Below the pieces are notes generated by a model that did no database searches, was not told the origin of the DNA, and saw only the letters and a program-made list of their open reading frames with translations. Below, in pieces: positions 26,400-53,373 of a stretch of 57,732 nt of DNA. The position numbers and the translations under genes are program-made. Source of the stretch: Rhodopseudomonas sp. BR0M22 (GTDB lineage: Bacteria > Pseudomonadota > Alphaproteobacteria > Rhizobiales > Xanthobacteraceae); the NCBI RefSeq assembly GCF_010907035.1, contig NZ_QUMK01000032.1, positions 1 to 57,732 of the forward strand, read 5' to 3'. Every line of letters starts with the position of its first letter. Position 1 is the stretch's first letter.

Positions 26400-26804
26400 T
26401 TATCGCGGATTTTCCAGAAACGGATTTTCGACGCGCAACGTGCCGAAGCTGCGGCCGTGCTGCAAATCCTCGCTGTACAGCACCTCGCAGCCGGCCTCCT
26501 GCGCGGCAGCGACGATCAGCGCGTCGTAGAACGACACCCGGTGATCACGTGCAAGGACAACGGCTGCGGCATGCGTGGTAAGAGTGATCGGAAGCACGTC
26601 ATCGAGCGCGGCGTGAAACTGCTCGAGCGCGACTTCGATCTGCGGCCAGTCGTGCCCCAACTTTCGGCGCGCTACGTGGACGAATTCATTGAGCACCTGA
26701 ACGCTGGCAACTCCACCGCTGCTCAGGCAAGCAGCAGCCGTTTGCTGACGCGGGTCCGAGGTCGTGATATAGACGAGAATGTTCGTGTCGAAGAACGCCT
26801 TCAC
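26400..26804 (-). CDS. vapC: PIN-domain toxin (VapC family)
   Basis: A 134-residue PIN-domain ribonuclease. The acidic metal-binding residues are visible as FFDTNILVY (Asp near residue 6), VLNEFVHVARRKL (Glu near 40), SFYDALIVAAAQEAGC (Asp near 95) and YSEDLQHGR (Asp near 113). Length is normal. Its start overlaps the end of the antitoxin gene by 4 bases (ATGA). In this family the toxin cuts tRNA or rRNA when free of antitoxin. Confidence 0.92.
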   Translation of the reverse strand: MKAFFDTNILVYITTSDPRQQTAAACLSSGGVASVQVLNEFVHVARRKLGHDWPQIEVALEQFHAALDDVLPITLTTHAAAVVLARDHRVSFYDALIVAAAQEAGCEVLYSEDLQHGRSFGTLRVENPFLENPR

Positions 26805-27055
26805 TGATCATTCGCCTCGTCGCGATACCGCTCGTTCGCCTCGTCGCGATCGAACTTGTAGTCAGCAGGAAGGGTCCATCGCAGCTGGGAAAGGCGCTCC
26901 ACCGCCGCCCTGCGCCGGTCTTCCTTCTCAACCACCAGCGTTCGTTCGACGATGTCGACGACGTTCAACTCGTCGCCCTCTTTCAGGTCGAGCTTGTCGA
27001 CCAACGCCTTGGGCAGCCTGACCGCGAGACTGTTGCCCCATTTCGAAACCAGCAT
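26801..27055 (-). CDS. vapB: AbrB/MazE-type antitoxin (VapB family)
   Basis: An 84-residue antitoxin. The N-terminal swapped-hairpin AbrB domain reads MLVSKWGNSLAVRLPKALVD...LKEGDEL. The C-terminal toxin-binding tail contains an internal repeat, RDEANERYRDEAND, encoded by a near-duplicated GCCTCGTCGCGAT tract. The start at 27055 has GGAGGG as ribosome site; the ATG at 27067 is less well placed. It is expected to bind the palindrome at 27082-27103 and repress its own operon. Confidence 0.9.
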   Translation of the reverse strand: MLVSKWGNSLAVRLPKALVDKLDLKEGDELNVVDIVERTLVVEKEDRRRAAVERLSQLRWTLPADYKFDRDEANERYRDEANDQ

Positions 27056-27081
27056 CGCACCCTCCATGCCCCGGCAAGAAT

Positions 27082-27334: not shown

Positions 27335-27408
27335 TGGGGAATGGTGTAATGGTAGCACAACAGACTCTGACTCTGTTTGTCTTGGTTCGAATCCAGGTTC
27401 CCCAGCCA
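27335..27408 (+). tRNA. tRNA-Gln (anticodon CUG), CCA encoded
   Basis: A full cloverleaf can be drawn. The acceptor stem is TGGGGAA with TTCCCCA. The anticodon arm is ACAGA-CTCTGAC-TCTGT, giving anticodon CTG. The T-arm is CTTGG-TTCGAAT-CCAGG. Discriminator G and CCA follow. Its 3' end is the integration site of the 10-kb element downstream; the gene stays intact because the element carries the 18-base 3' end. Confidence 0.95.
27391..27408. other. Left attachment site (attL core)
   Basis: Eighteen bases, ATCCAGGTTCCCCAGCCA, at the 3' end of tRNA-Gln, repeated exactly at 37390-37407. Strand exchange is expected within this block. Confidence 0.9.
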
Positions 27409-27454
27409 GCATCCTACTAAGCCCATTTTGGCAACAATGTAAGGGGCTTAGCAA

Positions 27455-27757
27455 ATGTCACGAACTCCCAACCCACCTAGGCGAACCACCTCGGTCGCTC
27501 CAGAGACCAAGAAGCAGCTTGCAGCCCTCGCGACGCTGCTAGGTCTGATGCAGACCGCTTCGAAGCTCAGCGCCGAATTGGATGCGCTGGCGGATCAGGT
27601 CGGGGGCTCCCTTGAGCAGATTGCCGAAACAGCTGGTGTGCCATTCTTCGAGGTGCACCAAGCCTACGCCGGCCTTCCCCAAGCGCGCCGGAAGCCGAGA
27701 GCGGCTGTGAAAGCTCCGGGCGCTCCGAAGGCCCCCAGGGCCCGAAGAAAGGCATAG
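27455..27757 (+). CDS. Small basic DNA-binding-like protein at the left end of the element
   Basis: A 100-residue protein, not recognised as a named family. Residues 50-74 (GSLEQIAETAGVPFFEVHQAYAG) have the spacing of a helix-turn-helix. The last 25 residues are Ala/Pro/Arg/Lys-rich, like histone H1 tails. It starts 47 bases after attL with AAGGGGC upstream, and its 5' codons overlap the left pair of putative integrase arm boxes. By position and character it could be an excisionase/directionality factor or an element repressor; both are guesses. An intrinsic terminator follows at 27786. Confidence 0.65.
   Translation: MSRTPNPPRRTTSVAPETKKQLAALATLLGLMQTASKLSAELDALADQVGGSLEQIAETAGVPFFEVHQAYAGLPQARRKPRAAVKAPGAPKAPRARRKA
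27469..27494. promoter_or_regulatory. Left pair of 13-bp repeats (putative integrase arm sites)
   Basis: Two tandem boxes, CAACCCACCTAGG and CGAACCACCTCGG, are spaced 13 bases apart, 61 bases inside attL. The same arrangement occurs at 37302-37327, 62 bases inside attR. Paired direct repeats flanking a core are the usual layout for arm-type sites of tyrosine integrases. Confidence 0.6.
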
Positions 27758-27785
27758 AGCCGCCCCAAAGCGGTCACGGACCACT

Positions 27786-27820
27786 AGGGCCTCGTGGGCT
27801 TTCCACGGGGCCTTTTCTTT
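27786..27820 (+). terminator. Intrinsic terminator after the small basic protein gene
   Basis: GGGCCTCGTGG and CCACGGGGCC (one G-U pair) form a stem around GCTTT, followed by TTTTCTTT. It is 29 bases after the stop codon. Confidence 0.75.
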
Positions 27821-27957
27821 GGCGCGCCGAGCTTCGACCAGTGTAACGCAATAAACACACCTGGAACGAGGTGCCGCGCGGAGTTCGGTTTGAGAAAACA
27901 ACCGATCGGCACCTATAAAGGGCAGTCCGACCGGTCGAAGTCTTTAGGTGGCGCCTC

Positions 27958-29925
27958 TTAGGCCGCTTGATGCTTCACGAGGTAGCTCTTTGCCCCTCTG
28001 CCGCGCCCCTCGGTCTGGTAGGTCACGCCAAGCTCGGCTAGGCGGCCCGCAAGTCCGCTATCAGGGCAATTCAGGTCCTCTCTGATCTTCTTAAGGGCAC
28101 CGGGGATGCCGATGTCACCGAGTACCTTTCGCAAGGACCAAGTCCCAGGGCCGCACATCTCCATGTGCAGAGCCAACGCTTCAGCGTTGGAGCCTTTACG
28201 CGGCCTCCGCACCTTCGGTCCATCCATCTGGAAATCCCAATCAGCGACCTTCAGGTCTGGAAGGTCGGCTTGGATGTTCTTCAGCACCTCATCGCCATCT
28301 ATGTCCTTCGGGAGGACAATGAACACGTCTGCCGGCGGGCAGTTGCCGTGCTCATCGGTGACGCGGCGGAGCCGAATGCGGCCGATTGCCTGGATGATCG
28401 AGACTGAAAGTTGGCGCTGCCTCATGGCGCGATGGACGTTGCGGTGTGCCTTCCATTTAGGGTCGGCAAGCCACTCGTCACCCTTGAAGCCCTGGAAGGC
28501 GAAGAACGTGTTGGTGGACCACACTTGATCCCGGTACGGCATACCAAAGATCACGGCTGTATCGCAGTTCTGCCATTCGTTGCTTCCGTCCACTGCCCCC
28601 CAATGCCCAACTGAGAAGGGGCCAGGTTGAGCGGCGGCCTTCTTCGGCAAGAAGATTGCAGCGGGCGCACGGTTACCCTTGTGAAGACAGAGGAACACTG
28701 AGCGATCAGGGCCTAACCTCTGCTCCAGGTCCGCAAGCAAACGCGGAAAGCGCTTGCCGAAGTTGGCAATCATCGAACGCTTGCCCAGGCCGGGCGCCCT
28801 CGCCACGTGCAGGGTCACGTTGCGGTAGCTTCGGACCCGGCTAGGTGTCTGAATGCGTTGTGCACGGCGTTCAAACAGATCCCACAGAAGATCAGAACGG
28901 GCGGTAGCATCAAGCACCACCGGTCCAGGAGCATCTAAGGGCACAGCCAAAGCGGCAGAGTGAAGCGCGTGCTCTCCTCCCGTCTTGGCGTAGTAGGCCC
29001 ATTGGTCGTACAGGGCTTGGGAGCCGTCCAAGGTCTTTTCGACGCATTGTCGAATACGCTTGCGCGCGTCGCCGTCTTCAGCTTTGGCACCAAGGCGATC
29101 AAACTCCACTTGTCGGAGAGCAAGTTTCAGAGGGCCAAAATCAACCAGGGGCACGTCACCTTGATTGATGGCCTCTGCCCATAGGCCACGGGAGAACCCG
29201 TCCTCTGCACTGGCGTGCTGAGAATGATTGTCCAAGTTCATCTTCAGCACGTGTAAGGCCCACTGCTCTGTGGGGAACTCTCGCTCCATCTCAGGGGTGA
29301 TGTACCTCAGCACTTCAGCCAGATCACATGATGTAACCTTGGAGCTAGTCACGACGTTCGCCAGTGCTTCATCAACAATGGTCAGAAGGCGCTCCCCTCC
29401 TGTCCAGTTCATGAAGCTGTCCCACCGGCTACCACGGGCAGACGATGCGTTGAGGTACGCTTGGTGCGGAATGACGATGGTGTCGTGAGAGAACAACACG
29501 CCCGGCAACTTCGGGTCGGACGAATGGTGCGCTATGGCGACGGCACCGCCAGCATAGCTATTGATGGCCTTGGCGATCTTCTCAGCATCTTCAATGAGCC
29601 GAGTGACGATAACGGAGCCCACAGGGCTTTGAAGCCCCTTAGAGGCTCTATTGCGCTGTGCCTGCATCGCGGCAAAAACACAGGCACCAGTCGTCTTGCC
29701 TGAGCCTGTTGCCGGCTGGAGAATGCGCCAAGGCGCTTGAACACCATTCACAGCATCATCAATGGCACTGTTGAATGTCTCTGCCATGATGGTCCAAAGC
29801 TGCTCTAGCGGTTGAGATGAGCAAAGGCCGTAGTCGGCAGTCCAGAGTTCCTTCATCCGCGCGGTGAACTCTTGCGGTGGCACGAGGGCATAGCCGTGCT
29901 CGTGCAGACCGATAGTGGTTTGCAT
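27958..29925 (-). CDS. SF2-type helicase/ATPase of the element
   Basis: A 655-residue protein with superfamily 2 motifs: Walker A PATGSGKTTG near residues 71-80, motif II LLTIVDEALAN near 181-190, and motif VI SIIQAIGRIRLRRV in the C-terminal third. The middle contains an aromatic-rich insert. It resembles DEAD/DEAH-like helicases of phages and integrative elements and may unwind DNA at the element's origin. The ATG at 29925 has AAGG upstream. The frame is open to a TTG at 30063 without a ribosome site, so 46 extra residues are possible. The C-terminal 70 residues look like a separate winged-helix-like domain. Its exact role (replication or defence) is not known. Confidence 0.72.
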   Translation of the reverse strand: MQTTIGLHEHGYALVPPQEFTARMKELWTADYGLCSSQPLEQLWTIMAETFNSAIDDAVNGVQAPWRILQPATGSGKTTGACVFAAMQAQRNRASKGLQSPVGSVIVTRLIEDAEKIAKAINSYAGGAVAIAHHSSDPKLPGVLFSHDTIVIPHQAYLNASSARGSRWDSFMNWTGGERLLTIVDEALANVVTSSKVTSCDLAEVLRYITPEMEREFPTEQWALHVLKMNLDNHSQHASAEDGFSRGLWAEAINQGDVPLVDFGPLKLALRQVEFDRLGAKAEDGDARKRIRQCVEKTLDGSQALYDQWAYYAKTGGEHALHSAALAVPLDAPGPVVLDATARSDLLWDLFERRAQRIQTPSRVRSYRNVTLHVARAPGLGKRSMIANFGKRFPRLLADLEQRLGPDRSVFLCLHKGNRAPAAIFLPKKAAAQPGPFSVGHWGAVDGSNEWQNCDTAVIFGMPYRDQVWSTNTFFAFQGFKGDEWLADPKWKAHRNVHRAMRQRQLSVSIIQAIGRIRLRRVTDEHGNCPPADVFIVLPKDIDGDEVLKNIQADLPDLKVADWDFQMDGPKVRRPRKGSNAEALALHMEMCGPGTWSLRKVLGDIGIPGALKKIREDLNCPDSGLAGRLAELGVTYQTEGRGRGAKSYLVKHQAA

Positions 29926-30383
29926 TAAGAAACCTTGTCTTTGTTCGTAGAGATGCCGCAATCGGTCCAAGCCGCCCTGAGGGCAGCGATCACGGCAAAG
30001 GAAAGCACCCTTTAAGTCCCCTAAAGAATACTTAGGAGGTTTTCGGGGTGCATTAATGGTCAAAGCGTAGGAGGCATGAAGCCGCCCGAATGCTCCTGAG
30101 GAGCCCTGCCGGCGTTCTAGGCTGCACCAAAGCCACCACCAACATTTGTTTTGATGACGGTTGGTGCCGCCGGAAGGGCTCTTGGGCCCTCCCGTCTGAT
30201 GCGTGCCTCTGAGGGCGTCAGGAGTTCCAGGAGGCGCGCGGCCCCCCCACGGGGCAAAGAGAGCGCAAGACCGCTTACGCTCCCCTGAGCCCTCCCAGCG
30301 CCTTCTAGGACTCGTCTAGTCAACTAGGCATCTTCAGCGTGTGCTGGTTATAAAACGCTTCACTGCTGTAGGCCGGCAGGTGC
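29926..30383. other. Gap between helicase and tail-collar genes
   Basis: The left part may code for an N-terminal extension of the helicase (to 30063). The rest holds two TTCTAGG-containing tracts (near 30114 and 30303), a GGCCCCCCCACGGGGC run near 30240 and no convincing gene on either strand. It must carry the helicase promoter and the end of the tail-collar transcript. Confidence 0.4.
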
Positions 30384-31262
30384 TTAGGTTTTGATACAGG
30401 TCAGTACGGTCATGGTCTCTGGGCGCGTCTCATTGCCGCCTGAGGCGAGAATTGAGATGTTGTGCGTGTGGAGACCTGCACCGTCCGTGTTCCCATCCAC
30501 GAGATGTTCGTGATTGATGTCCGCCAAGCCTGTGTCTGGCACACTTACGGGATAGTCTCCGGCATTTCCGAAGGACAGGTAGGCGTCGCCCCACGAGGAG
30601 GCCGCCGACTGTAGCCTGCCGCTGGTGTGCTTGTGCGGGTTGCTACGGTTCATACCCTGCGACCAGATAGACAGGTGATGGGTATGCCCGCCCTGAGCGT
30701 CTGCGGTGGCTCCGTGTGTGTGAGAGCCAAACTGGCTTCCTTGCATATTACCAACATCGCCGGCCGGGGAGCCTGAGCCGCCCCGGTGTCGTCGATAGCG
30801 GTTCTGGCCCCCAGGAAGACAGAATTGGTCCCCTGAGCCTCCCCAGGTGTAGCCAATGGCGGCGAATAGGTCCGGATAGACAGACTTGCTGAGCGTCGTG
30901 CCGTCGCACGGAAGCCAACCCTCCGGGGCGACGGACATCGCGAAATCCATGATGGCTCCGGCGGGGAGCACCCCACCCGTCAGACGGCCTGCAATGCCGA
31001 TCTTGCCCGTAGAGGCCCGATAGAACCCCAGCGTGCCTTCAGAGGTGAAGCTGAAGGCCGGGAGACTTGAGGAACCGTCACCAGACAAATAGCCCGTTCC
31101 CGCTTCCAGGCCCCTGGTGAGGGCTCCAGACGCGCGAGGGAAGGTGTTCTTGAGTGTGAGCTTGATGCCTCGGATATGGTCGTCACCGTTGGCCAGACTG
31201 TCGTTAACGTCCGGGCTGGTGACCACGAGGCTGTCAAGGTAGCTGAAGGTTTCTAAAGCCAA
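30384..31262 (-). CDS. Phage tail-collar/tail-fibre protein
   Basis: A 292-residue protein. The N-terminus (FSYLDSLVVTSPDVNDSLANGDDHIRGIK) matches the short attachment domain common in podovirus-type tail fibres. A tail-collar domain follows: GAIMDFAMSVAPEGWLPCDG near residue 100, then DLFAAIGYTWGGSGDQFCLP. The C-terminal half has several HTH/HTHG histidine patterns (SHTHGATADAQGGHTHHLS, HEHLVDG, LHTHNIS) that bind metal in trimeric fibres. The usual DLRGRF after the collar is altered to GGQNRYRRHRGG. The start is a TTG at 31262 with AAGAGAA upstream; the conserved domain begins at once, so no ATG downstream fits. It is the only virion-type gene in the element. Confidence 0.85.
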   Translation of the reverse strand: MALETFSYLDSLVVTSPDVNDSLANGDDHIRGIKLTLKNTFPRASGALTRGLEAGTGYLSGDGSSSLPAFSFTSEGTLGFYRASTGKIGIAGRLTGGVLPAGAIMDFAMSVAPEGWLPCDGTTLSKSVYPDLFAAIGYTWGGSGDQFCLPGGQNRYRRHRGGSGSPAGDVGNMQGSQFGSHTHGATADAQGGHTHHLSIWSQGMNRSNPHKHTSGRLQSAASSWGDAYLSFGNAGDYPVSVPDTGLADINHEHLVDGNTDGAGLHTHNISILASGGNETRPETMTVLTCIKT

Positions 31263-31284
31263 GAAATTCTCTTTGAGATTGTTT

Positions 31285-31395
31285 GCGAAGTCTTCGCGAT
31301 GGTTGAAGCAGCATCCAGGCCGCTTCCTCGTCTATGAGGTGATCTCCGAATAGAGGGCTGAAGATGCTAACGGACAGCCTGCTAGACAGTCCTGG
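31285..31395. repeat. Control-module repeat A upstream of the tail-collar gene
   Basis: Block 1 (31285-31330) is nearly identical to 33742-33788 and contains a hairpin, GAAGCAGC and GCCGCTTC (31305-31326). Block 2 (31356-31395) matches 31892-31931 at 31 of 40 positions. It lies 22 bases before the tail-collar start. Confidence 0.65.
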
Positions 31396-31410
31396 TGCTA
31401 TTAGCAGTGA

Positions 31411-31749
31411 TCATGCGGCCTTTCGGGACGTGGTGTTAGTGCTGGTGTTGTGGGTGATGGTCGGCCAATTGGCGTCGATCGGAGGAGCCTTGGGCATCCG
31501 CTGGTAGCTGGTGCCTTCAGCGGGAACGTGAAGGCGCTCTGACGCCACTCGGATGGCTCGTAAGTACGCGGCCTCATCAGGCTCCGCGCGCCCCTGAAGG
31601 CTCCGGAAGCCCTTAGCAAGCTCGGTGATGGCGGCTGCGCCCCATCCGTTGCCGATGGCACGGCCAAGGGTGACACGCTCCGGGAAGCTCCCGCAGATGG
31701 AGCGCAGATAGCGATACTCGGCACGAAGGCCGGGATGATGAATGGTCAT
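31411..31749 (-). CDS. Hypothetical protein of the element
   Basis: A 112-residue protein, not recognised. It starts MTIHHPGLRAEYRYLRSICG and contains a helical centre (AIGNGWGAAAITELAKGFRSLQGRAEPDEAAYLRAIRVASERL), then a polar Thr/Asn-rich tail. Arg/Tyr richness and the absence of membrane segments suggest a small nucleic-acid- or protein-binding factor. The ATG at 31749 has no strong ribosome site. It lies upstream of the tail-collar gene on the same strand, and both are preceded by related repeat modules, so they may be co-regulated. Confidence 0.55.
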   Translation of the reverse strand: MTIHHPGLRAEYRYLRSICGSFPERVTLGRAIGNGWGAAAITELAKGFRSLQGRAEPDEAAYLRAIRVASERLHVPAEGTSYQRMPKAPPIDANWPTITHNTSTNTTSRKAA

Positions 31750-32092
31750 TGGCTGGTTGTTGCTGGTGTATTGGCTACGGGCGCGCCTAGGCGCTAGGGC
31801 CTCTGAAGGCGCGAAAGGTCTCGTGCTGGAAGCGCACACTGGACGGCCGAGAGCCGCTTCTCTGTAAAGGGGGACGAGTATTCGGCTAGGCGGCTGAAGA
31901 TGCTGGCGAACGGCCTGCTTGAGCGGTCTGGAGGGCCGCGGGAGTCTTGCGCTCCGGACGGTCTGCTGGAGGGCACCAAGGCCGCTTCGGCAAAGGTGGT
32001 CTCTTATTCGGGTAACTCTATAGAAATCCCTGGCGAATATTGGCCTTTGTTCAATTTCGTTATATACAAGAAAAAGCAGCTTAGAGAGCGCA
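31750..32092. repeat. Gene-free control region with repeat module B and a second half-copy
   Basis: 31851-31885 (GCCGCTTC...AAAGGGGG...TATTCGG) and 31977-32011 (GCCGCTTC...AAAGGTGG...TATTCGG) are diverged copies of the same block found at 31285 and 33742. 31892-31931 is block 2. On the plus strand, TATATA near 32061 with TTGGCC about 15 bases before it could serve the zinc-ribbon gene. No gene is supported within this stretch. Confidence 0.55.
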
Positions 32093-32686
32093 GTGACCGA
32101 GGAAGACTGCAGAGCAGCGCTTGAGCGCATCAGGTGGCCGGAAGGTCCTGTCTGTCCCGAATGCGGGGCCACTGGCTCCACCATCGTCAGGGCTTTCAGG
32201 GGCGAGGCACACCGGCCGGGCCTCTACCTTTGCGCCAGCTGTCGTACCCAGTTCACGGTGACAGTGGGCACACCGCTGAAGGGCTCAAAGCTCCCTCTCG
32301 CGGCATGGATCAAAGCTGCGCATCTCCTAAATGCCCATAAGCCGGTCACGGTTCGTGAAGTGCAGATGGCGCTTGGCGTCACCTATAAGACCGCGTGGCA
32401 GATGGTGCGGAAGCTCCTAGAGGGCATGGAAGGCTACCGAGGCCGCCTGAGCCTCCCTGGCAAGGATGGACCTTCGGTGCCACCGTCTCGGCGCACGTTG
32501 CAAAGGGGTTGCCGGAGAACCGGAACAGCCGAGCGGCTTGGTCACGCAAGCAACAACGCATCCGCAAAGGAACTTACGTGGCACCAGCAGAACCGGCCTG
32601 CAACGGTGCGCTATCGGCCATCCTGCGCCCTTCGGCCACTCAAGCGCATACAGCGCGAACAGAGCGCTTCCTTCGGTGGATCATGA
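32093..32686 (+). CDS. IS1595-type zinc-ribbon protein (transposase N-terminus, probably frameshifted)
   Basis: Residues 1-115 match the N-terminal part of IS1595/ISXO2 transposases: CRAALERIRWPEGPVCPECG (first CxxC), LYLCASCRTQFTVTVGTPLKGSKLPLAAWI (second CxxC), then a helix-turn-helix-like VTVREVQMALGVTYKTAWQMVRKL. After that the Asp-Asp-Asn/His catalytic domain is absent. The rest of this frame has shadow-like Arg/Ser composition. The +1-related frame ending at 32706 (FGATVSAHVAKGLPENRN...) looks more natural, so a frameshift near 32450 is likely. The start is GTG. Function is either remnant or a DNA-binding regulator. No inverted repeats of an insertion sequence were found around it. Confidence 0.5.
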   Translation: MTEEDCRAALERIRWPEGPVCPECGATGSTIVRAFRGEAHRPGLYLCASCRTQFTVTVGTPLKGSKLPLAAWIKAAHLLNAHKPVTVREVQMALGVTYKTAWQMVRKLLEGMEGYRGRLSLPGKDGPSVPPSRRTLQRGCRRTGTAERLGHASNNASAKELTWHQQNRPATVRYRPSCALRPLKRIQREQSASFGGS

Positions 32687-32732
32687 ACGATGGTGGCGCC
32701 AATTGAGCAAGACCCGCCCGCCCATTCCGATT

Positions 32733-33251
32733 ATGTCCGAGGATCAGGAACGCTTCATGGCTTTCGAGGGACTCGTGCAATGGACCGCAGCAACGGTTGA
32801 GCAAGGCGAGCGGATTGCAAGAGCAACCCGAGCGATGCATGCCGCCTTTAACCTCGAAGATACATCACAGCGTTTGCGACTATGTGCAGCGCAGCTTCGG
32901 ACCGAGCACCACTACTTTGCGATCTGCGCGAACAAAGTGCTGGAGCACCGCAGTTGGCTCGAACAATTGAACATATGTGGTGACTTGGACCTATCTGAGT
33001 TCGATGCATTCCCGGTGCGCGATGTCCGCGACCTTCGAAACATGAGAGAGCACGTTGCGGACTACTTTAAGGGGCGTGGGAGAGATGCGGAGCGCTGGAG
33101 GATAGACACGCCGGAATTCAGCGCAGACGCAAGCTCATGCGCCGGCACAGTCATCGGTGGCAGACTCGACTGGAGCGCGTTTGCCCGTGCAGCCGAGAGG
33201 GTGCTCCCGTCGTTACTTAGATGCGCCGTCAGAGTTCATAAAATCCCATAG
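32733..33251 (+). CDS. Hypothetical helical protein
   Basis: A 172-residue soluble protein, not recognised by name. It begins MSEDQERFMAFEGLVQWTAA and is helix-rich, with RLRLCAAQLRTEHHYFAICANKVLEHR in the middle and VRDVRDLRNMREHVADYFKGRG near residue 105. The last block, arginines followed by H and a Y/F pattern (RNMREH), is reminiscent of HEPN-type R-x4-H motifs, but the overall fold cannot be confirmed. The start ATG is weakly supported. It lies 47 bases after the zinc-ribbon frame and just upstream of the GGGACCC repeat array. Confidence 0.6.
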   Translation: MSEDQERFMAFEGLVQWTAATVEQGERIARATRAMHAAFNLEDTSQRLRLCAAQLRTEHHYFAICANKVLEHRSWLEQLNICGDLDLSEFDAFPVRDVRDLRNMREHVADYFKGRGRDAERWRIDTPEFSADASSCAGTVIGGRLDWSAFARAAERVLPSLLRCAVRVHKIP

Positions 33252-33252
33252 C

Positions 33253-33489
33253 AGGGACCCGCCGCCGATCGCCAATTGGCAGAGGGACCCTTTGAGCATC
33301 TGCGCGCCCCGGAGGGACCCGTCGTCAGATTTTTCCAGCCCGGAGGGACCCAATTCGCCGGGAGCCCGGACCGAGGGACCCATAGGCTTTCACGCACCGA
33401 TTTCGTCTAACAACAACGGCGGGTTTAAGCCCGGTTTTTGAAATCCATTTTGGGGGAGTTTCGCCAAATCCAGAGGCGCGGAGGGACCC
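33253..33489. repeat. Iteron-like array: six GGGACCC boxes, five with 30-31 bp spacing
   Basis: AGGGACCC ends at 33260, 33290, 33320, 33351, 33381 and again at 33489. From the second box on it is preceded by G. Spacing is 30, 30, 31, 30 and 108 bases. The core GGGACCC is an odd-length near-palindrome suited to a dimeric protein. The DNA between boxes is not repeated. The region is non-coding and lies in the centre of the element. Best guess: origin iterons or an operator array. Confidence 0.75.
33418..33440 (+). terminator. Possible intrinsic terminator within the repeat region
   Basis: GCGGGTTTAAGCCCGGTTTTT gives a short CGGG/CCCG-type stem followed by five T. It lies about 170 bases after the 172-residue gene. 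The stem is short. Confidence 0.4.
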
Positions 33490-33610
33490 TATGGCCGTTG
33501 CAATCCGCCGTCCGGAGAAGGCAGGCAGGACACCTAGGCTCTCACCCGCCAGCGCAGAAGCTCGGTGACTGATCATCCCCGATTGGAAATCGGTCGATCG
33601 CTTCCAGACA

Positions 33611-33721
33611 TTAGCCGAACCAGACAGCAGCACCGAGAGCGGCGAGGCTTCCGAGGCATAGCGCCCGGTCCTGGACCAAAGCGGACACGATGAGAGCTAC
33701 GGCGACGATTGGAACGAGCAT
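33611..33721 (-). CDS. Tiny two-helix membrane protein (candidate)
   Basis: A 36-residue open frame beginning MLVPIVAVALIVSALVQDR and ending LAALGAAVWFG. It has two hydrophobic stretches separated by a short polar turn (QDRALC), as in very small holin-like or toxin-like peptides. GAGAA lies 8-12 bases before the ATG. It directly follows repeat C (33742-33788), just as the tail-collar gene follows repeat A, which supports expression. It is too short for certainty and could be chance. Confidence 0.35.
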   Translation of the reverse strand: MLVPIVAVALIVSALVQDRALCLGSLAALGAAVWFG

Positions 33722-33741
33722 GTGCGTTCTCGCAGTGTGGG

Positions 33742-33788
33742 GCGAAGTTTTCGCGATGGTTCTGAAGCAGCATCTAGGCCGCTTCCCT
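33742..33788. repeat. Control-module repeat C
   Basis: GCGAAGTTTTCGCGATGGTTCTGAAGC... nearly duplicates 31285-31330, including the GAAGCAGC...GCCGCTTC hairpin (33764-33785). It lies 20 bases upstream of the 36-residue membrane protein frame. Confidence 0.65.
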
Positions 33789-33823
33789 GTGTAGGTGGCC
33801 CCGCTTTCGCGTAACCCTATGAT

Positions 33824-34528
33824 CTAAGCGGCTTTAGGGAGCCTTTTCAGCATCCGCTGCACCGCTGTCGGGTGCCACTGACCACCACGCGGGGCATCAA
33901 TGCCCTGCCGGTTGAGTTCGTCGGTGATGGCGCGGACGGTCGAGATGCCTGAGCGGCGGAAGTCCTCAATGATGCCGTTGAGGTCAGTCGCGCGCTGTTG
34001 AGCCTTCTGTTTGATCCGTGCCACCGCCTCGGCATTGCCTGTCTGCTTGCCTCGGAGGGCTCGTGCGCCGTTGGGGTTGCCTAGCTTCGTGCCCCGCGCC
34101 TTAGCGGCTGCAAGGGCCTTTTTGGTTCTCTCGCCGATCAGGCCCGCTTCTAGCTCAGCCACAGCGGCCATCTGAGTAAGCAGGAACTTTCCCATTGGGC
34201 CGGGAGGGACGCTGGGTAGATCGCAGAAGACAAGGTCAACGTCGCTCGCCACTAGTGAGCGCAGAAGGTCCACGTTTCTGGTGAGGCGATCGAGCTTGGC
34301 GAAGACCAGCTTGGCGCCAATAGCCTTGGCGTGCGAGAGCGCGGCGGCGAGCTTGGGTCGATCCGACTTCCGGCCGCTCTCGGTCTCGACGTACTCGGCC
34401 ACCAGCGTCCACCGACCGCCGTTGAGGTAGCTGGAAACGGCCTCGCGCTGCGCTTCGATCCCAAGGCCGCTTCGCCCCTGTTTGTCCGTCGAAACGCGCA
34501 AATAGGACACGAACTTCCCTGAGGCCAT
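33824..34528 (-). CDS. Serine recombinase (resolvase/invertase family)
   Basis: A 234-residue serine recombinase. The catalytic domain starts FVSYLRVSTDKQGRSGLG with the nucleophile Ser near residue 13. Conserved arginines are in FAKLDRLTRNVDLLRSL (near 78-85). The long E-helix follows, then a Recombinase-type DNA-binding tail with a helix-turn-helix (STVRAITDELNRQGIDAPRGGQWHPTAVQRML). Length is normal for the small resolvase class. The start at 34528 is supported by MASGKFVSYLRVST; the frame to 34549 adds 7 residues. It may resolve dimers or invert DNA. No inverted crossover pair was found nearby. It is the second recombinase of the element. Confidence 0.9.
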   Translation of the reverse strand: MASGKFVSYLRVSTDKQGRSGLGIEAQREAVSSYLNGGRWTLVAEYVETESGRKSDRPKLAAALSHAKAIGAKLVFAKLDRLTRNVDLLRSLVASDVDLVFCDLPSVPPGPMGKFLLTQMAAVAELEAGLIGERTKKALAAAKARGTKLGNPNGARALRGKQTGNAEAVARIKQKAQQRATDLNGIIEDFRRSGISTVRAITDELNRQGIDAPRGGQWHPTAVQRMLKRLPKAA

Positions 34529-34683
34529 GAACCAAATTCCTTGCACCACAAATCGAACTAACGGACGTTACTTCATTTTGTGTACAGTCGCAAGCAGGTT
34601 GATGTCCGAAAGGGGGTGCACGCGCACGCTCTCTGTGAGAGGAGCGAGGCCGTTAAGTGGTCAATCGGACAAGGCGGTCACCG

Positions 34684-35379
34684 ATGCAGTTTCTCAAAGC
34701 CTTCATGGGCACATTTGCAGGCAAGTTTTTTGGCGGCATTGCTGTTGCCGCATTGGCGTTAATTGGCTTCGGCCCGGAATACTGGAGCGCGCGCCTCCTT
34801 AAACTGGCATCTGATCCTCTCGGCATCAGTTTGATCGCGGCGCGCGCAATATTCCTTTGCGCCGCTTTGGCTCTTGTCGCGTTTCTCACATGGCCGGCGA
34901 TCAAGCGGAGGATTTGGCGAGCCCCTGCATGCTACGTCGAGAAGATAGGTCTCATTGCAGGGATTGATCGCTCCACGACCACGCCCGTGCGATTGATCGC
35001 CAAGGCGAAGACGAGCACCAAAAGACTAAAAATTGCAGTCGAATATAGCTCATTTGGACGAGCGGTAAACTGGGCGGGCTGGCACCTTCCTCGTCAAGTC
35101 CTTCTTCAAACGGTTGATGACGTAATGGCAGGCCAAGATATTCGAGTAGTCGTGGTGACGTGCGATGCAGCGGCAACTGAAGTTTGGTGGGGCGGCCCCA
35201 ACGACCGTGAGGGAAATTGGGTTCAAAAATCAAAGAAGCATCGAGCGAGGATCAAGTTTGTAGGTGACGACGGAGACGTGCAGTACTATGCCTTCGGCCT
35301 CTTAAGGACTTCCCTGGACGAGCCCCCATTCATAGTGGAAGTGATTACAGAGGCCGACCTCTCGTTCGGAGAACAATGA
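34684..35379 (+). CDS. Hypothetical membrane protein of the element
   Basis: A 231-residue protein, not recognised. Two N-terminal membrane segments (GKFFGGIAVAALALIGFG near residues 13-30 and AARAIFLCAALALVAFLTW near 51-69) anchor a mixed alpha/beta cytoplasmic domain of about 155 residues (IRVVVVTCDAAATEVWWGG, RARIKFVGDDGDVQYYAFG). The ATG at 34684 has AAGGCGG upstream; the GTG at 34657 adds nine residues. It is divergent from the recombinase. A two-helix anchor plus soluble sensor or effector is a layout seen in accessory and defence proteins, but no catalytic motif is visible. Confidence 0.65.
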   Translation: MQFLKAFMGTFAGKFFGGIAVAALALIGFGPEYWSARLLKLASDPLGISLIAARAIFLCAALALVAFLTWPAIKRRIWRAPACYVEKIGLIAGIDRSTTTPVRLIAKAKTSTKRLKIAVEYSSFGRAVNWAGWHLPRQVLLQTVDDVMAGQDIRVVVVTCDAAATEVWWGGPNDREGNWVQKSKKHRARIKFVGDDGDVQYYAFGLLRTSLDEPPFIVEVITEADLSFGEQ

Positions 35380-35392
35380 GTTTTAGCGTCCC

Positions 35393-35417
35393 ACTTCTGC
35401 ATTCCATCTGCAGAAGT
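35393..35417. other. Perfect 9-bp hairpin between two element genes
   Basis: ACTTCTGCA - TTCCATC - TGCAGAAGT: a perfect 9-base stem with a 7-base loop, 14 bases after a stop codon. No T-tract follows, so it is a weak terminator candidate. It could be an operator or an mRNA-processing hairpin. Confidence 0.55.
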
Positions 35418-35489
35418 AATCATTAGGCGAAGGGCGGCTGCTGTGCGAAGCTGGGGGCATTGCATTGATGCGGTTGCAGCCATCCAAAA

Positions 35490-36014
35490 ATGACCGACAA
35501 GAACATCAAATATGTCCCCTTCGCCACCGAGATCATGAGCGCGCGCAGGCCGCATTTGTCTGAGCCGGAGACCGAGGGCGAATACGCGGACGGCAGATAC
35601 AAAACCGAAGCGACCGCCACCGAGGGCTACGCTCAGCGCTTTATGGAGCAAATCCAAAAAATCTCCGTCTCTTACTTCGGTGACAAGAAGGCCGTGCATC
35701 TACCTTGGAAGAACACCAAGGAAGGCGACATCGCGTTCATATTCAGGAGCCCGAAGAAGAAGCCAGAGCTATTGGACAGCAAAGGCGTCCCACTCTCCAA
35801 AAGCGTGATCATCCGGGAAGGATGCTTGGTCCGTATCGCTGGTGTTATTGCTGGATGGGAAAAAGGGGCTATGAGCGGCGTCAGCCTCTGGTTGGATGCC
35901 GTTCGCGTGATCAGGCTGGTTGAGGGCTTCGATGCCTCAAAGCTGTTCGGCCCACCTGATGAAGGCTTTGATGTTTCAATAGCCTACCGATTTTATGGAG
36001 CGCATCACTTCTGA
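35490..36014 (+). CDS. Phage single-strand DNA-binding-like protein (DUF2815/gp2.5-like)
   Basis: A 174-residue protein. It has the profile of small phage OB-fold DNA-binding proteins: RRPHLSEPETEGEYADGRYKTEATAT near the N-terminus, a basic loop (FRSPKKKPELLDSKG), and the block IREGCLVRIAGVIAGWEKGAMSGVSLWLDAVRVIRLVEG near residues 105-145. That block parallels the GCYVRAS...GLNNIQKVRDGE region of DUF2815 proteins. The start codon has a poor ribosome site. Its last 13 codons overlap the integrase gene on the other strand (tail to tail). It would coat single-stranded DNA during element replication, together with the helicase. Confidence 0.6.
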   Translation: MTDKNIKYVPFATEIMSARRPHLSEPETEGEYADGRYKTEATATEGYAQRFMEQIQKISVSYFGDKKAVHLPWKNTKEGDIAFIFRSPKKKPELLDSKGVPLSKSVIIREGCLVRIAGVIAGWEKGAMSGVSLWLDAVRVIRLVEGFDASKLFGPPDEGFDVSIAYRFYGAHHF

Positions 36015-37301
36015 GCCGTAGTCCAGCTTCTCGATCGCCTTCCGCAGATTGACACGGTCACCCTTAGAATAGTGGCCGTAGGTCATGCTTTGGCGCCGAT
36101 GCCCAACGAGGAGCTTCACGGTGCTTTCAGGCACCTCAAGACCCTCCATGCACGTGATGAAGGTGTTGCGGAGCGCGTGAAAGTCCTCTTTGTCTCCTGT
36201 GACGCCAACCTGCTCCCTGAAGCGTCCGTATGCCTTGCTGACGTACCAAGATCGTTTGCCATCCGGTCCACCAGCAACCAGCCCCTTGAACAGGTATTCG
36301 TCAGCGTCCTTGAGACGACGCTCGACAATCTCGACCGCCAGCAGGTGCACCGGTATTTCTCGCTTGGCCGCGCGCGTCTTCCCTGAGGTAATGACCATCC
36401 AATAGCCATCCTCCCGCTTGGCGACGTCCAAACTTTTCAAGGCACACAACTCGTCAAGTCTCGCGCCATGAAGCAACGCCAGCCGTAGCAAGTCGCTCAG
36501 CAACTGAGCATACTTGGGGGTGCTATAGGTGGCCCCCAGGAGCTTCAGGAGCCTTTCGTTGGCTAACCCACGCCTCTCTGCCGGAGCGGCCTTCTTTCCC
36601 AACTGCTGACCCCGCCACGGGTTCGCTGGAGCAATGCCCCGTCCTGCCAACCACTGCCATAGGGTTGAGAGAGACGAAACGTGTCGCCGCACCGTAGCGC
36701 GTGCCAAACCCGAGCCATTGAGGATGTCGGAAACGTAAGCTCCTGCCCTTTTCCGTGTGACATCTTCGACAGACACGCCCTGACCAGCCCAATCAATGAA
36801 GCGCCTTATTGTGCTCTCGTGCTGGGCCTTGGTTTGGCCTGCATGCTCCACCTCCCCTAGCCAGATCGGGTATTGGTCACTGAGCAGAGTGGCTTCGCCC
36901 GTAGCGGCCTTGTAGAAGCGCTCAGCAGCCTCTTGCCCGCTCTCATTCAAGATTTCCTTGGCGCGCGCCCTCAGCCGGTCCAATTCTTCTTCGTGGTCGC
37001 TCCACTCCCGGCCCTCCTCGTCCTCGTGCCACGTCCGGTCATGGCTCTCTAGGATTTGTCGGAACTCCGCTGCCTCCCTGGCGCGGGAAGCATCGGCTTC
37101 ACTACCGGCTTTCTCCAGATGGGCGATCTGACGATGAAACTGGTCAACGAAGAAGTGCTTCCGCCGGTTTGCTTCGGCCAAGCTGTCCGTACCTAGCGAC
37201 TTCTTGAAGCGCTTCCGTCCAGCCTTGGCCTGGAGGCGCTTGGGGACCTCCACCACTACCGAATAGGTGTTGTATTGCTTGATGAGGTACTTTTGGTCCA
37301 T
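35976..37301 (-). CDS. int: Tyrosine integrase of the element
   Basis: A 441-residue phage-type integrase. An N-terminal arm-binding-like region and coiled coil (to about 130) are followed by a SAM-like core-binding domain (LSDQYPIWLGEV...AYVSDIL) and the catalytic domain with LLHGARLDELCAL (Arg), FHALRNTFITC (HxxR), VGHRRQSMTYGHYSKG (His/Arg and nucleophile Tyr). The start at 37301 has AGGTGGG upstream, and that ribosome site lies in the right pair of 13-bp boxes, so binding there could also control int expression. It lies 88 bases from attR, the usual position. It should catalyse integration into tRNA-Gln. Confidence 0.93.
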   Translation of the reverse strand: MDQKYLIKQYNTYSVVVEVPKRLQAKAGRKRFKKSLGTDSLAEANRRKHFFVDQFHRQIAHLEKAGSEADASRAREAAEFRQILESHDRTWHEDEEGREWSDHEEELDRLRARAKEILNESGQEAAERFYKAATGEATLLSDQYPIWLGEVEHAGQTKAQHESTIRRFIDWAGQGVSVEDVTRKRAGAYVSDILNGSGLARATVRRHVSSLSTLWQWLAGRGIAPANPWRGQQLGKKAAPAERRGLANERLLKLLGATYSTPKYAQLLSDLLRLALLHGARLDELCALKSLDVAKREDGYWMVITSGKTRAAKREIPVHLLAVEIVERRLKDADEYLFKGLVAGGPDGKRSWYVSKAYGRFREQVGVTGDKEDFHALRNTFITCMEGLEVPESTVKLLVGHRRQSMTYGHYSKGDRVNLRKAIEKLDYGSEVMRSIKSVGY

Positions 37302-37327
37302 CAACCCACCTAGGTTAACCACCTAGA
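37302..37327. promoter_or_regulatory. Right pair of 13-bp repeats (putative integrase arm sites)
   Basis: CAACCCACCTAGG and TTAACCACCTAGA are spaced 13 bases, in the same orientation as the left pair. They cover the integrase leader and ribosome site. Confidence 0.6.
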
Positions 37328-37389
37328 CTTACAGGTCGAAACGATGATAAACAAGCTGCTATTGGGCTTCCGTCGCTTGTTGGATTGGT

Positions 37390-37407
37390 ATCCAGGTTCC
37401 CCAGCCA
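37390..37407. other. Right attachment site (attR core)
   Basis: An exact 18-base copy of the tRNA-Gln 3' end (27391-27408). No tRNA 5' half precedes it, so it is the displaced copy that marks the right boundary. Confidence 0.9.
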
Positions 37408-37506: not shown

Positions 37507-37920
37507 ATGACCGACATCAAACCCGACGTCTCGCTGCTGAAGCGTGCCCTCGCTCGCCTGATCGAGGGACTGGCACGTTATCAGGCGGACATCTCCGATA
37601 CTCAAATTCGCGACGGCTTGGTGCAGCGCTTCGCGTTCACCTATGAGATCGCGCACAAGATGCTGAAGCGCTACCTGGAATTCGCTGCGCCGAACCCGGC
37701 GCTGATCGACGGCATGAGCTTTCAGGATCTGATCCGTACCGCGAGTGAACAGGGTCTATTGCTCGGCGAATGGGCCGACTGGCGCGGCTTCCGCGAAATG
37801 CGCAGCAAGACCAGCCACACCTACAACGAGGACGTGGCGCTGGAAGTGGTCGGCGGCATCCCGCGCTTCATCGAGGAAGCCCGCGTACTTTACGACCGTC
37901 TCGCCGAGCGGCTGTCATGA
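37507..37920 (+). CDS. hepT: HepT-family HEPN toxin (HI0074-like)
   Basis: A 137-residue all-helical HEPN protein of the nucleotidyltransferase-substrate-binding (HI0074) type. The ribonuclease motif RX4HXY is intact: R99-SKTS-H104-T-Y106 in the segment REMRSKTSHTYNED. The N-terminal helices (LLKRALARLIEGLARYQ, RFAFTYEIAHKMLKRYLE) are typical. It overlaps the MntA gene by 4 bases. In characterised HepT/MntA pairs, MntA adenylylates the tyrosine of this motif to silence the toxin. It starts 99 bases beyond attR, so it belongs to the chromosome rather than to the element. Confidence 0.9.
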   Translation: MTDIKPDVSLLKRALARLIEGLARYQADISDTQIRDGLVQRFAFTYEIAHKMLKRYLEFAAPNPALIDGMSFQDLIRTASEQGLLLGEWADWRGFREMRSKTSHTYNEDVALEVVGGIPRFIEEARVLYDRLAERLS

Positions 37921-38249
37921 CGGCGCCCCTGCCGAAGCTGGATTTGCGCCCCGAGCACTGGGCGATGGTTCGCGATATCCTGGCGACGCAGATCCCGGAC
38001 CGGGAAGTTCTCGCCTTCGGCTCGCGCGCTCGGGGACAGGCGAAGCGGTATTCGGATCTCGATCTCGCCGTGCTCGGAGATGATCCGCTCGGCCTCCACA
38101 AGGTGGCCGAACTGAAGGAAGCGTTCGAGGAGTCGGACCTTCCATTCAAGGTCGACGTCGTCGAGTGGGCGCAGACCGATACGCGGTTTCGCGACGTGAT
38201 CCGGCGCGATGCGGTGCGGGTGCAGAACGGCTGTGCGGCCACTCCCTGA
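37917..38249 (+). CDS. mntA: MntA-family minimal nucleotidyltransferase antitoxin
   Basis: A 110-residue nucleotidyltransferase. The active-site motif GSX10DXD is intact: G35-S36, then ten residues, D47-L-D49 (AFGSRARGQAKRYSDLDLAVLG). The third acidic residue is probably in FKVDVVEW near position 78. The ATGA overlap with hepT shows translational coupling. Known partners use ATP to add AMP groups to the HepT tyrosine. Confidence 0.9.
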   Translation: MTAPLPKLDLRPEHWAMVRDILATQIPDREVLAFGSRARGQAKRYSDLDLAVLGDDPLGLHKVAELKEAFEESDLPFKVDVVEWAQTDTRFRDVIRRDAVRVQNGCAATP

Positions 38250-52635: not shown

Positions 52636-52803
52636 TCGGTAGCTTTAGACCGCCGCACCGGACGCAACCACCGGCTTTTCCGCCGTCCCCCTGTTCGCGT
52701 ACCGCCAAGCTGCCCGGACCTGATCCAAGTCCACGGACAGATCGCCCGCGCCCGCCCACAAGTGCTTGGCAGGGAGGCCCTTTCGCCGGCAAGGATTGCA
52801 CCC

Positions 52804-52809
52804 TATATT
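52804..52809 (+). promoter_or_regulatory. Likely -10 element of ssrA
   Basis: TATATT in GC-rich DNA, a few bases ahead of the first conserved tmRNA segment. The -35 region 16-17 bases upstream is poor (TTTCGC/TTCGCC). Confidence 0.4.
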
Positions 52810-52810
52810 G

Positions 52811-53141
52811 GGGGCGTCGGGGCAACCCGACTATGGAAATAAATGGCCGTCGTAATAAACCATTCGGACCCGGGGGCGGTACCCGGCGCCTCCACCAAAG
52901 CCCGTCATCCTTCTTTCGGACGGCGAGCTTCGGCGGGGGCGAAATAGGATCGACGAGGGCGTAAAGGGCTTGCTTTTTCCCGGTATTGTTCCGCCGTTAT
53001 CGGGCTACTGCAATAGTTGCCAACGACAACTATGCTCCGGTTGCTCAGGCTGCGTAAGGCAGTTTGAAAGACCACTTTAAAGCCCTAACGGGTTAAGCTC
53101 CGTTAGGCGGGGTTCGGAGGCACCTGGCAACAGAAGCCTCC
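52811..53141 (+). ncRNA. ssrA: tmRNA, two-piece circularly permuted (alphaproteobacterial ssrA)
   Basis: The acceptor piece comes first. It has a T-arm CCGGG-GGCGGTA-CCCGG (52870-52886), then CGCCTCC, A and CCA ending at 52897. A 37-base intervening segment is followed by the coding piece, which begins GGGGGCGAAATAGGATCGAC at 52935. The 5' GGGGGCG pairs with CGCCTCC, one G-U pair included. The tag frame runs from 53019 (resume codon GCC) to TAA at 53055-53057 and encodes ANDNYAPVAQAA. Two further hairpins (CCTAACGG/CCGTTAGG; GGAGGC/GCCTCC) close the 3' side. It rescues stalled ribosomes and marks proteins for ClpXP. The exact 5' end is estimated. Confidence 0.95.
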
Positions 53142-53373
53142 ACTCATCCTCATCACGTCTTGGTCGTTCAGAGTCTTGCTTGCCGAAGGCTGGCTTGCTG
53201 CCCGTTTCGCAGTGCATCGCCGCACAATTCAGCCGCGATTGATGCTGACCGTGGACACCGGCCGGGGTAGCATGATGTTTCGGCACGAGTCGGGCCCTCC
53301 CGATTGCCGAACCAGCCTCAGGGCAGCAGCCTTCGGGTTTCCGAGCGACGCGACGACCACACGGAACGACCAT

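Follow-up and report, generated by a model that had tools for sequence, protein, structure and literature searches.

What kind of element sits at the end of a tRNA gene with its own integrase, replication and recombination genes and a single phage tail gene, and with no genes for a phage head? The question is raised by a 10.0-kb insertion in Rhodopseudomonas sp. BR0M22, which lies in a 57,732-nt stretch (contig NZ_QUMK01000032.1, our C85, of a 5.29-Mb assembly in 159 contigs); we call this whole stretch the window, and coordinates refer to it. The original prediction proposed a phage satellite that might use its own tail protein to re-aim the particles of a helper phage. Comparison with related loci and phages supports the satellite: a bounded core that recurs in other genomes, a cis site shared with one phage group, and genes typical of that group without those for heads or the packaging motor. 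We hold this reading, an integrative phage satellite whose helpers form a definable group, at a probability of roughly 0.8. The re-aiming idea is a separate and more tentative matter, taken up with the fibre below.

The element spans 27391-37407, between two exact copies of an 18-bp direct repeat, ATCCAGGTTCCCCAGCCA; these lie on the forward strand at 27391-27408 and 37390-37407 and serve as left and right attachment (att) repeats. The left copy is the 3' end of a tRNA-Gln(CTG) gene, identified by ARAGORN at 27335-27408 on the forward strand. No other exact copy occurs in the assembly, and we estimate roughly that an 18-mer from a tRNA end would match within 20 kb by chance with a probability of 3e-5. 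Three genomes of the same genus have an empty site, where the joined flanks of the element give one continuous match of 92-94% identity over the junction; in that survey the right flank was matched in four of the 16 genus genomes, our own included. The element has a GC content of 58.7%, against 65.4% in the remaining window. The predicted exact bounds at tRNA-Gln therefore stand on the repeat search, the tRNA call and the empty sites in relatives. As expected of a satellite, the insertion is a discrete mobile element, integrated and equipped with an integrase and att sites of its own.

Three genes form the core. The tyrosine integrase (35976-37301, reverse strand, 441 residues) matches PF00589 (1.2e-12) and phrog_1 (2e-36), and the serine recombinase of resolvase/invertase type (33824-34528, reverse strand, 234 residues) matches PF00239 (3.2e-30). 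The third, at 27958-29925 on the reverse strand, encodes 655 residues, or 701 in an alternative reading that starts at 30063. It gave no Pfam or PHROG match at E 0.1, and a profile search against solved structures gave nothing. The structure prediction suggested for this protein was run with an alignment of 14 relatives: the AlphaFold model (predicted local distance difference test, pLDDT, 78) has DinG/XPD helicases of superfamily 2 (SF2) as its closest Foldseek matches (2e-10), with modest TM-scores of about 0.4-0.5 to DinG and XPD. Pfam, PHROG and Foldseek together confirm the predicted set of an integrase, an SF2 helicase, a protein resembling a single-stranded DNA-binding protein (SSB), a serine recombinase and a tail-collar protein, including the lengths of 655 and 174 residues for the helicase and the SSB. 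The absence of head, portal and terminase genes also held, as none of these families was matched in the ten window proteins scanned with Pfam and PHROG. Features that the original prediction did not mention are an intergenic site of phage type, a transposase fragment and some small genes without a characterised relative, all described below.

This core recurs. The helicase was found in 18 of 391 family genomes searched, our own included, although some matches were weak; the weak hits G055, G377 and G406 are not counted. An alignment-based search of GTDB found 27 named loci, where single-sequence patterns had found none, in Rhodopseudomonas, Bradyrhizobium, Tardiphaga, Mesorhizobium, Aquamicrobium and Lutimaribacter and in metagenome-assembled genomes with doubtful labels; the Mesorhizobium and Aquamicrobium members are more distant than those of the first three genera. 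Rhodopseudomonas pseudopalustris DSM 123 and Bradyrhizobium sp. BTAi1 are among the carriers. Dropping 11 duplicates and a short fragment (L182) from the GTDB loci left 15, which with 17 others make the 32 loci compared here. Repeats of 17-20 bp at a tRNA end, 6.2-18.4 kb apart, bound 12 of the 17 that were scanned for them, and these elements sit at tRNA-Gln, tRNA-Ser(GGA), tRNA-Glu(CTC), tRNA-His and tRNA-Arg(ACG). A search for like elements at tRNA-Gln, as had been proposed, found three more. Loci without bounds were counted from 6 kb left to 16 kb right of the helicase, and some end at contig ends, so absences there are soft. The recurring genes are the integrase, the DinG-like helicase and the serine recombinase, and many of the 32 helicase loci also have the other two enzymes. 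The window resolvase is 84-93% identical to those of five other elements at tRNA-Gln or tRNA-Ser, in which the helicase is only 46-64% and the integrase 54-75% identical to the window's.

The phages to which the element is related were reached through its tail-collar fibre gene (30384-31262, reverse strand, 292 residues; PF07484, 3.5e-17). A search of IMG/VR with an alignment of the collars gave at least 542 confirmed phage matches, of which 80 loci were kept as the helper-type comparison set; with four further pieces of two records these make up 84 phage sources. Contigs of this group reach 46 kb. One record, IMGVR_UViG_649633091_000002 (43.5 kb; our L052, L132 and L133), encodes a portal, major head protein, scaffold, large terminase, RNA polymerase, DNA polymerase, primase-helicase, exonuclease and tyrosine integrase, and L054 has an integrase and a single-subunit RNA polymerase. 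The tyrosine integrases of these phages differ from the window type and are only distantly related to it. A Bradyrhizobium genome (G373) contains a related prophage. It has an integrase-like gene beside tRNA-Cys, genes for portal, head and scaffold, and the cis site described below, and its large terminase shares 71% identity with the L054 protein. A search of 296 family genomes for the portal gave no close relative and 11 weak matches of at most 38% identity.

The helpers are probably phages of the L052/L054 type, podoviruses to judge by the relatives of their fibre and head genes. The N-terminus of the window collar matches tail proteins in 132 phage records; all of the 30 matches listed begin at residue 1, and most of them cover 42-49 residues at 51-60% identity. 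This is the part shared with the tail fibres of PaP3-like phages, which we take to be podoviruses. The helper group itself, unlike this short segment, is distant from named phages, with at most 41% identity in the capsid protein and 34% in the large terminase among the matches listed. For want of a close portal in the family genomes we first suspected virulent helpers, which the integrases and the G373 prophage ruled out; on the same grounds the helpers are probably temperate.

The satellites share a few genes with this phage group and lack those for complete particles. Among the 32 loci, ten have a collar, six an SSB, three a 796-residue protein of the virion module and one a transglycosylase-like protein, and 12 carry at least one of the collar, the 796-residue protein and the transglycosylase. 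In L158 the 796-type match extends over the first 569 residues, and the open frame that holds it has 714 codons; the protein was not found in phage records or in the 16 genus genomes. L179, which is left out of the three 796-type carriers, has two short phage matches that we considered as decay remnants and rejected, both lying within one 600-codon open frame in the same slot. Large terminase, portal, major capsid protein, scaffold, DNA polymerase, RNA polymerase and primase were found in none of the 32 loci, and the L054 portal and capsid proteins likewise had no match there. A small early phage gene of about 128 codons recurs at roughly 30-35% identity in five loci (G125, G083, G383, L165 and L179), and L167 and L171 each have a single match to other phage genes. 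As a control, 248 open reading frames (ORFs) taken from 14 phage loci were compared with the chromosomal DNA on either side of the 12 bounded elements, and none matched.

Two loci, G361 and G389, carry a protein whose gene in the phages immediately precedes that for the large terminase, a position at which a small terminase is normally found. This candidate has no Pfam match and a weak model (pLDDT 71), and its Foldseek matches in BFVD are mainly uncharacterised phage proteins, with one packaging small subunit at E 0.39. Its identity as a small terminase is a guess from position.

Besides genes, blastn comparison of elements with phages gave intergenic matches, from which we aligned a DNA site of about 125 bp. 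The 17 rows (five phage and 12 satellite copies) have an invariant GGGTCC, about 45 loosely conserved nucleotides, then TTCAA...TAAA, followed in most by a run of GYYGYYGYY; no RNA structure was predicted in it. The copy in the window lies at 33373-33497 on the reverse strand (71.3 bits with R1, a sequence-only model of which this copy is one of the 17 training rows; alignment A4). R1 reported no other place in its genome, where 150 of 1283 first-look candidates were scored. In the satellites it found 28 places in 45 sources, and at E of 0.001 or less 20 of the 32 loci have the site, eight of them not used in training; L176 was marginal, and the 12 extension loci L040-L051 gave no match. The 84 phage sources gave 43 places with E up to 1, of which 17 are below 1e-4, including the five training rows, and all 43 lie 22-433 nt upstream of a collar match. 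In L052 and L054 the site region falls between leftward genes and rightward structural genes.

In the satellites, all 18 copies that could be placed are intergenic by our gene calls. One copy lies within one or two genes' distance of the resolvase in 12 of 13 elements, and in G383 four copies separate blocks of cargo. The site region of the window also carries six GGGWCCC repeats (33254-33489, reverse strand), five of them spaced 30-31 bp; none of 2000 simulated sequences had three or more in 130 bp. Phages L054, L053 and L060 have clusters of the motif upstream of their collar genes as well. Some phages and elements have a pair of repeats that could form a hairpin with T residues after it, so a terminator is possible there. 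By raw counts, GGGWCCC occurs four times in the chromosomal flanks and 40 times inside the 12 bounded elements and the G361 locus, a rarity that possibly reflects avoidance of a restriction or methylation site. R1 also reports mostly weaker copies elsewhere in three genomes (contigs C79, C32, C6 and C56 of G363; C102, C42 and C99 of G389; C66 of G141). Those on C79 and C32 share their contigs with other resolvase-type genes, and these further copies may mark more distant satellites.

We can propose several roles for the site. Our tentative first choice would be a start of packaging or of replication, which we hold at somewhat less than even odds. A late promoter region would be a weaker candidate, and a site for the resident serine recombinase one that we rate slightly below it. 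A more speculative proposal, which we also think doubtful, is that the site is an exchange point at which satellites trade fibre, virion and cargo genes with their helpers, making the satellite family a mobile reservoir of receptor-binding genes for the whole phage group, one that would pseudotype the particles carrying it. DNA from the region of the phage collar is present twice in the window element. A segment at 31284-31327 (reverse strand) aligns by blastn with L052 6800-6845, just upstream of the L052 collar gene, over 46 columns at 91%, and a second copy, of L052 6788-6844, lies at 33742-33798 (reverse strand; 57 nt, 91%, 5e-15). Inversion of a tail gene by the serine recombinase was considered and ruled out, as the phage-type repeats around the cargo are direct.

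The collar of the window element is 56% identical to the L052 collar over its full length, and because the DNA match extends 36 bp upstream of the start codon it was probably taken together with its phage 5' region. The ten satellite collars are all intact, with a mean identity among them of 56% over residues 1-46 and only 25% over residues 151-292. In a tree of 53 collars, in which a few long phage branches are unsure, satellites and phages interleave, with at least five changes of label forced by well-supported branches; the G125 collar, for example, is paired with that of phage L054, and those of G000 and G006 fall with that of phage L052. The ratio of nonsynonymous to synonymous substitution (dN/dS) is about 0.22 between the window and G006 collars and 0.16-0.29 across collar and SSB pairs, with dS near saturation. 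A fibre that works and is exchanged would be expected to show this pattern, as opposed to a leftover. A conserved N-terminus with a variable C-terminus is also what re-aiming of the helper particle predicts. That the fibre enters helper particles and affects the choice of receptor is plausible, and is the best reading of its pattern.

These results bear directly on whether the element is simply a decayed prophage, with the collar, SSB and site left over from it. The phage-like parts do all come from one phage group, in which the site and the collar are neighbours; the window element contains an N-terminal fragment of an IS1595-type transposase (32093-32686, forward strand; PF12760 zinc ribbon, 5.8e-13); and some relatives are damaged, G391, the smallest bounded element, having lost most of its integrase and the G337 and G389 helicases containing stops. 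Decay is nevertheless unlikely because the fibres are intact, interleave with phage fibres in the tree, keep their N-terminus and vary C-terminally. Nor were the core genes found in intact phages of this type. The helicase had no match in 50,697 phage records, its profile none in 12 helper-type records, and single-sequence patterns gave no result in IMG/VR; the helicase, resolvase, window-type integrase and small ORFs were not found in the 80 helper-type loci. Bounded elements at five tRNA genes share this core but differ in the phage genes they carry, and the shared site persists in elements that have no collar. The original prediction would have fallen if its relatives had proved to be fragments of one larger prophage with a collar that is never conserved; instead the collar is intact in ten of 32 loci and looks selected. 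We regard decay as largely refuted and very improbable.

A second set of observations concerns the SSB. The window protein (35490-36014, forward strand, 174 residues) is Gp2.5-like (phrog_112, 5e-14), and its residues 1-163 are 66% identical to the SSB of the L052 record, to which the satellite SSBs as a group are about 58-76% identical. In each of the six satellite SSBs the protein stops shortly behind the conserved core, without an acidic tail. The seven phage SSBs compared, six of which are only distant relatives, all continue into an acidic tail, and the six with a stop inside the contig end in F or L; the window SSB also ends in F, but without an acidic stretch. In T7 the acidic tail of gp2.5 carries the contacts to the phage polymerase and helicase. 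By analogy, a tail-less SSB could inhibit helper replication, or could be an annealing protein for the satellite alone. The missing tail lends some weight to the idea that the element is mainly an anti-phage island, its fibre spoiling helper particles and its SSB poisoning their replication. Such weapons alone would leave the shared site and the swapped fibre C-termini unexplained, and we consider this unlikely as the element's main function, though it is compatible with a satellite.

Cargo raises a related alternative, that of a phage-defence or genomic island for whose movement the integrase suffices and which has acquired phage genes by chance recombination. Several relatives carry defence-type genes, which vary from element to element: a SIR2-HerA pair in G141 (a strong PADLOC match), NACHT in G201, ABC-3C in G361 and AlbA_2 in G374. 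These come from scans of chosen larger genes (20 proteins with PHROG, 20 with Pfam and ten with PADLOC, out of 168 element ORFs in total). Known satellites also carry cargo of the defence type, which speaks for a satellite here. Cargo also includes ATP-dependent DNA ligase-type genes (L027 3482-4357, cluster C29), which recur in G141, G265 and G383, and a Tardiphaga element has a gene resembling phosphoadenosine phosphosulfate (PAPS) reductase near its collar (L037 8248-8970). That no helper was found in the same genomes would also fit an island. The phage parts, however, are not a random sample: the same site, the same slot for the collar and the same integrase-adjacent slot for the SSB recur, and the large phage genes tested are absent from all 32 loci. 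We think chance acquisition by an island distinctly improbable.

A satellite that depends on L052/L054-type phages is the reading that we prefer, and it may work as follows. On infection by a helper or its induction, the integrase would excise the satellite as a circle. Its replication, its loading into helper heads, or both would depend on the helicase and SSB together with the shared site. The satellite fibre, having kept the common N-terminal part, would be built into helper particles and would set or widen the receptors of those that carry the satellite. The tail-less SSB may additionally hold back replication of the helper.

Several points weigh against this picture. Its support is wholly comparative. 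The site is missing at E 0.001 from 12 of the 32 loci and the collar from 22, several of them in each case distant or cut by contig ends. The 26 weaker phage matches to the site (E 0.004-0.19) rest on position, and many of the phage records are near-copies of one another. The two to four direct copies found in some elements would fit promoters or recombination sites no less than packaging. The satellite label changes six times in the collar tree, against a mean of 9.3 in shuffles; with such clustering, some of the collars descend within satellites. No helper-type large terminase was found in the 14 satellite genomes searched, and the helper is thus not resident there. Hosts of the helper group are known from the one Bradyrhizobium prophage only.

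A conserved small ORF of 100 codons adjoins the left att site (27455-27757, forward strand); it is matched in nine of the 32 loci, our own included, and Pfam and PHROG scans gave no match. Another of about 112 codons, without an assigned function, lies at 31411-31752 on the reverse strand and belongs to a cluster (C6) found in six elements. Two further ORFs appear to be cargo. One encodes 172 residues (32733-33251, forward strand) and has a 60% identical relative in G374; the other, identified from the ORF calls, encodes 231 residues (34684-35379, forward strand) and is a membrane protein by eye, with no relative among the compared elements and no Pfam or PHROG match. Directly to the right of the right att repeat, at 37507-38249, is a small gene pair that by eye resembles a HEPN/MNT toxin-antitoxin system. 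It lies outside the element, because G010 and G003 have the same stretch (91% identical) after an empty tRNA-Gln. To the left of the tRNA gene, at 26400-27067, two small reverse-strand genes resemble by eye a PIN-domain toxin and an AbrB-type antitoxin. Further off in the window, at 52802-53148, is a transfer-messenger RNA gene with the tag ANDNYAPVAQAA.

Phage-inducible chromosomal islands (PICIs), including those of Staphylococcus aureus (SaPIs), combine an integrase with parasitism of replication and packaging, a combination that we propose here too. The ten window proteins gave no match to an AlpA- or Stl-type regulator or to a primase-type replication protein, and neither a small terminase of PICI type nor a capsid-redirecting gene was recognised in the window. 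Searched at E 0.1 with Pfam and PHROG, the same proteins matched none of the hallmarks of P4 (alpha primase, psu, sid, delta and AlpA). P4-like satellites are integrated and have no morphogenesis genes, and their defence hotspot includes the cos site (PMC8628076). Here too cargo varies beside a site shared with phages; unlike P4-like satellites, the elements described here carry a virion gene of the helper.

Capsid-forming PICIs carry head genes and borrow tails (PMC10690885), whereas the present family carries a tail gene and would borrow heads; it has no capsid, portal or terminase gene of its own in the window scans or the 32 loci. The PICMI satellites of Vibrionaceae have an integrase, AlpA and a primase and lie next to fis (PMC10803314). 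They resemble our element in being small, with few genes and no capsid-remodelling gene (PMC10803314); the window element differs in lying at tRNA-Gln and in having no AlpA or primase match. MiniFlayer, a Streptomyces satellite, is similar in having its own tail-fibre gene; it differs in encoding capsid and packaging proteins of its own, in lacking a lysogeny module and in having a fibre that binds the helper's neck (PMC10690885). Charybdis elements also have tail- or protrusion-like genes without head hallmark genes, and capsid piracy has been discussed for them; they are marine archaeal elements of about 4.6 kb, with no known helper or helper-derived genes (PMC12324425).

Searches of the literature, which left subscription papers and most preprints uncovered, found no title or abstract on a satellite with both a helper-type tail fibre and a helper DNA site, or on a satellite family in Rhodopseudomonas or Bradyrhizobium; the few that named Bradyrhizobium or Rhizobiales gave no satellite family from these groups. 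Such a negative is weak evidence that a family combining fibre and site is new.

Known satellites for the most part take over or remodel heads and depend on the tail of the helper, so that their host range follows the helper's. A satellite family with its own helper-type receptor-binding fibre would uncouple its host range from that of its helper, and would offer a natural test of whether a phage parasite can steer transduction. For such tests the family offers three well-defined starting points: a phage group, a DNA site and a difference between SSBs.

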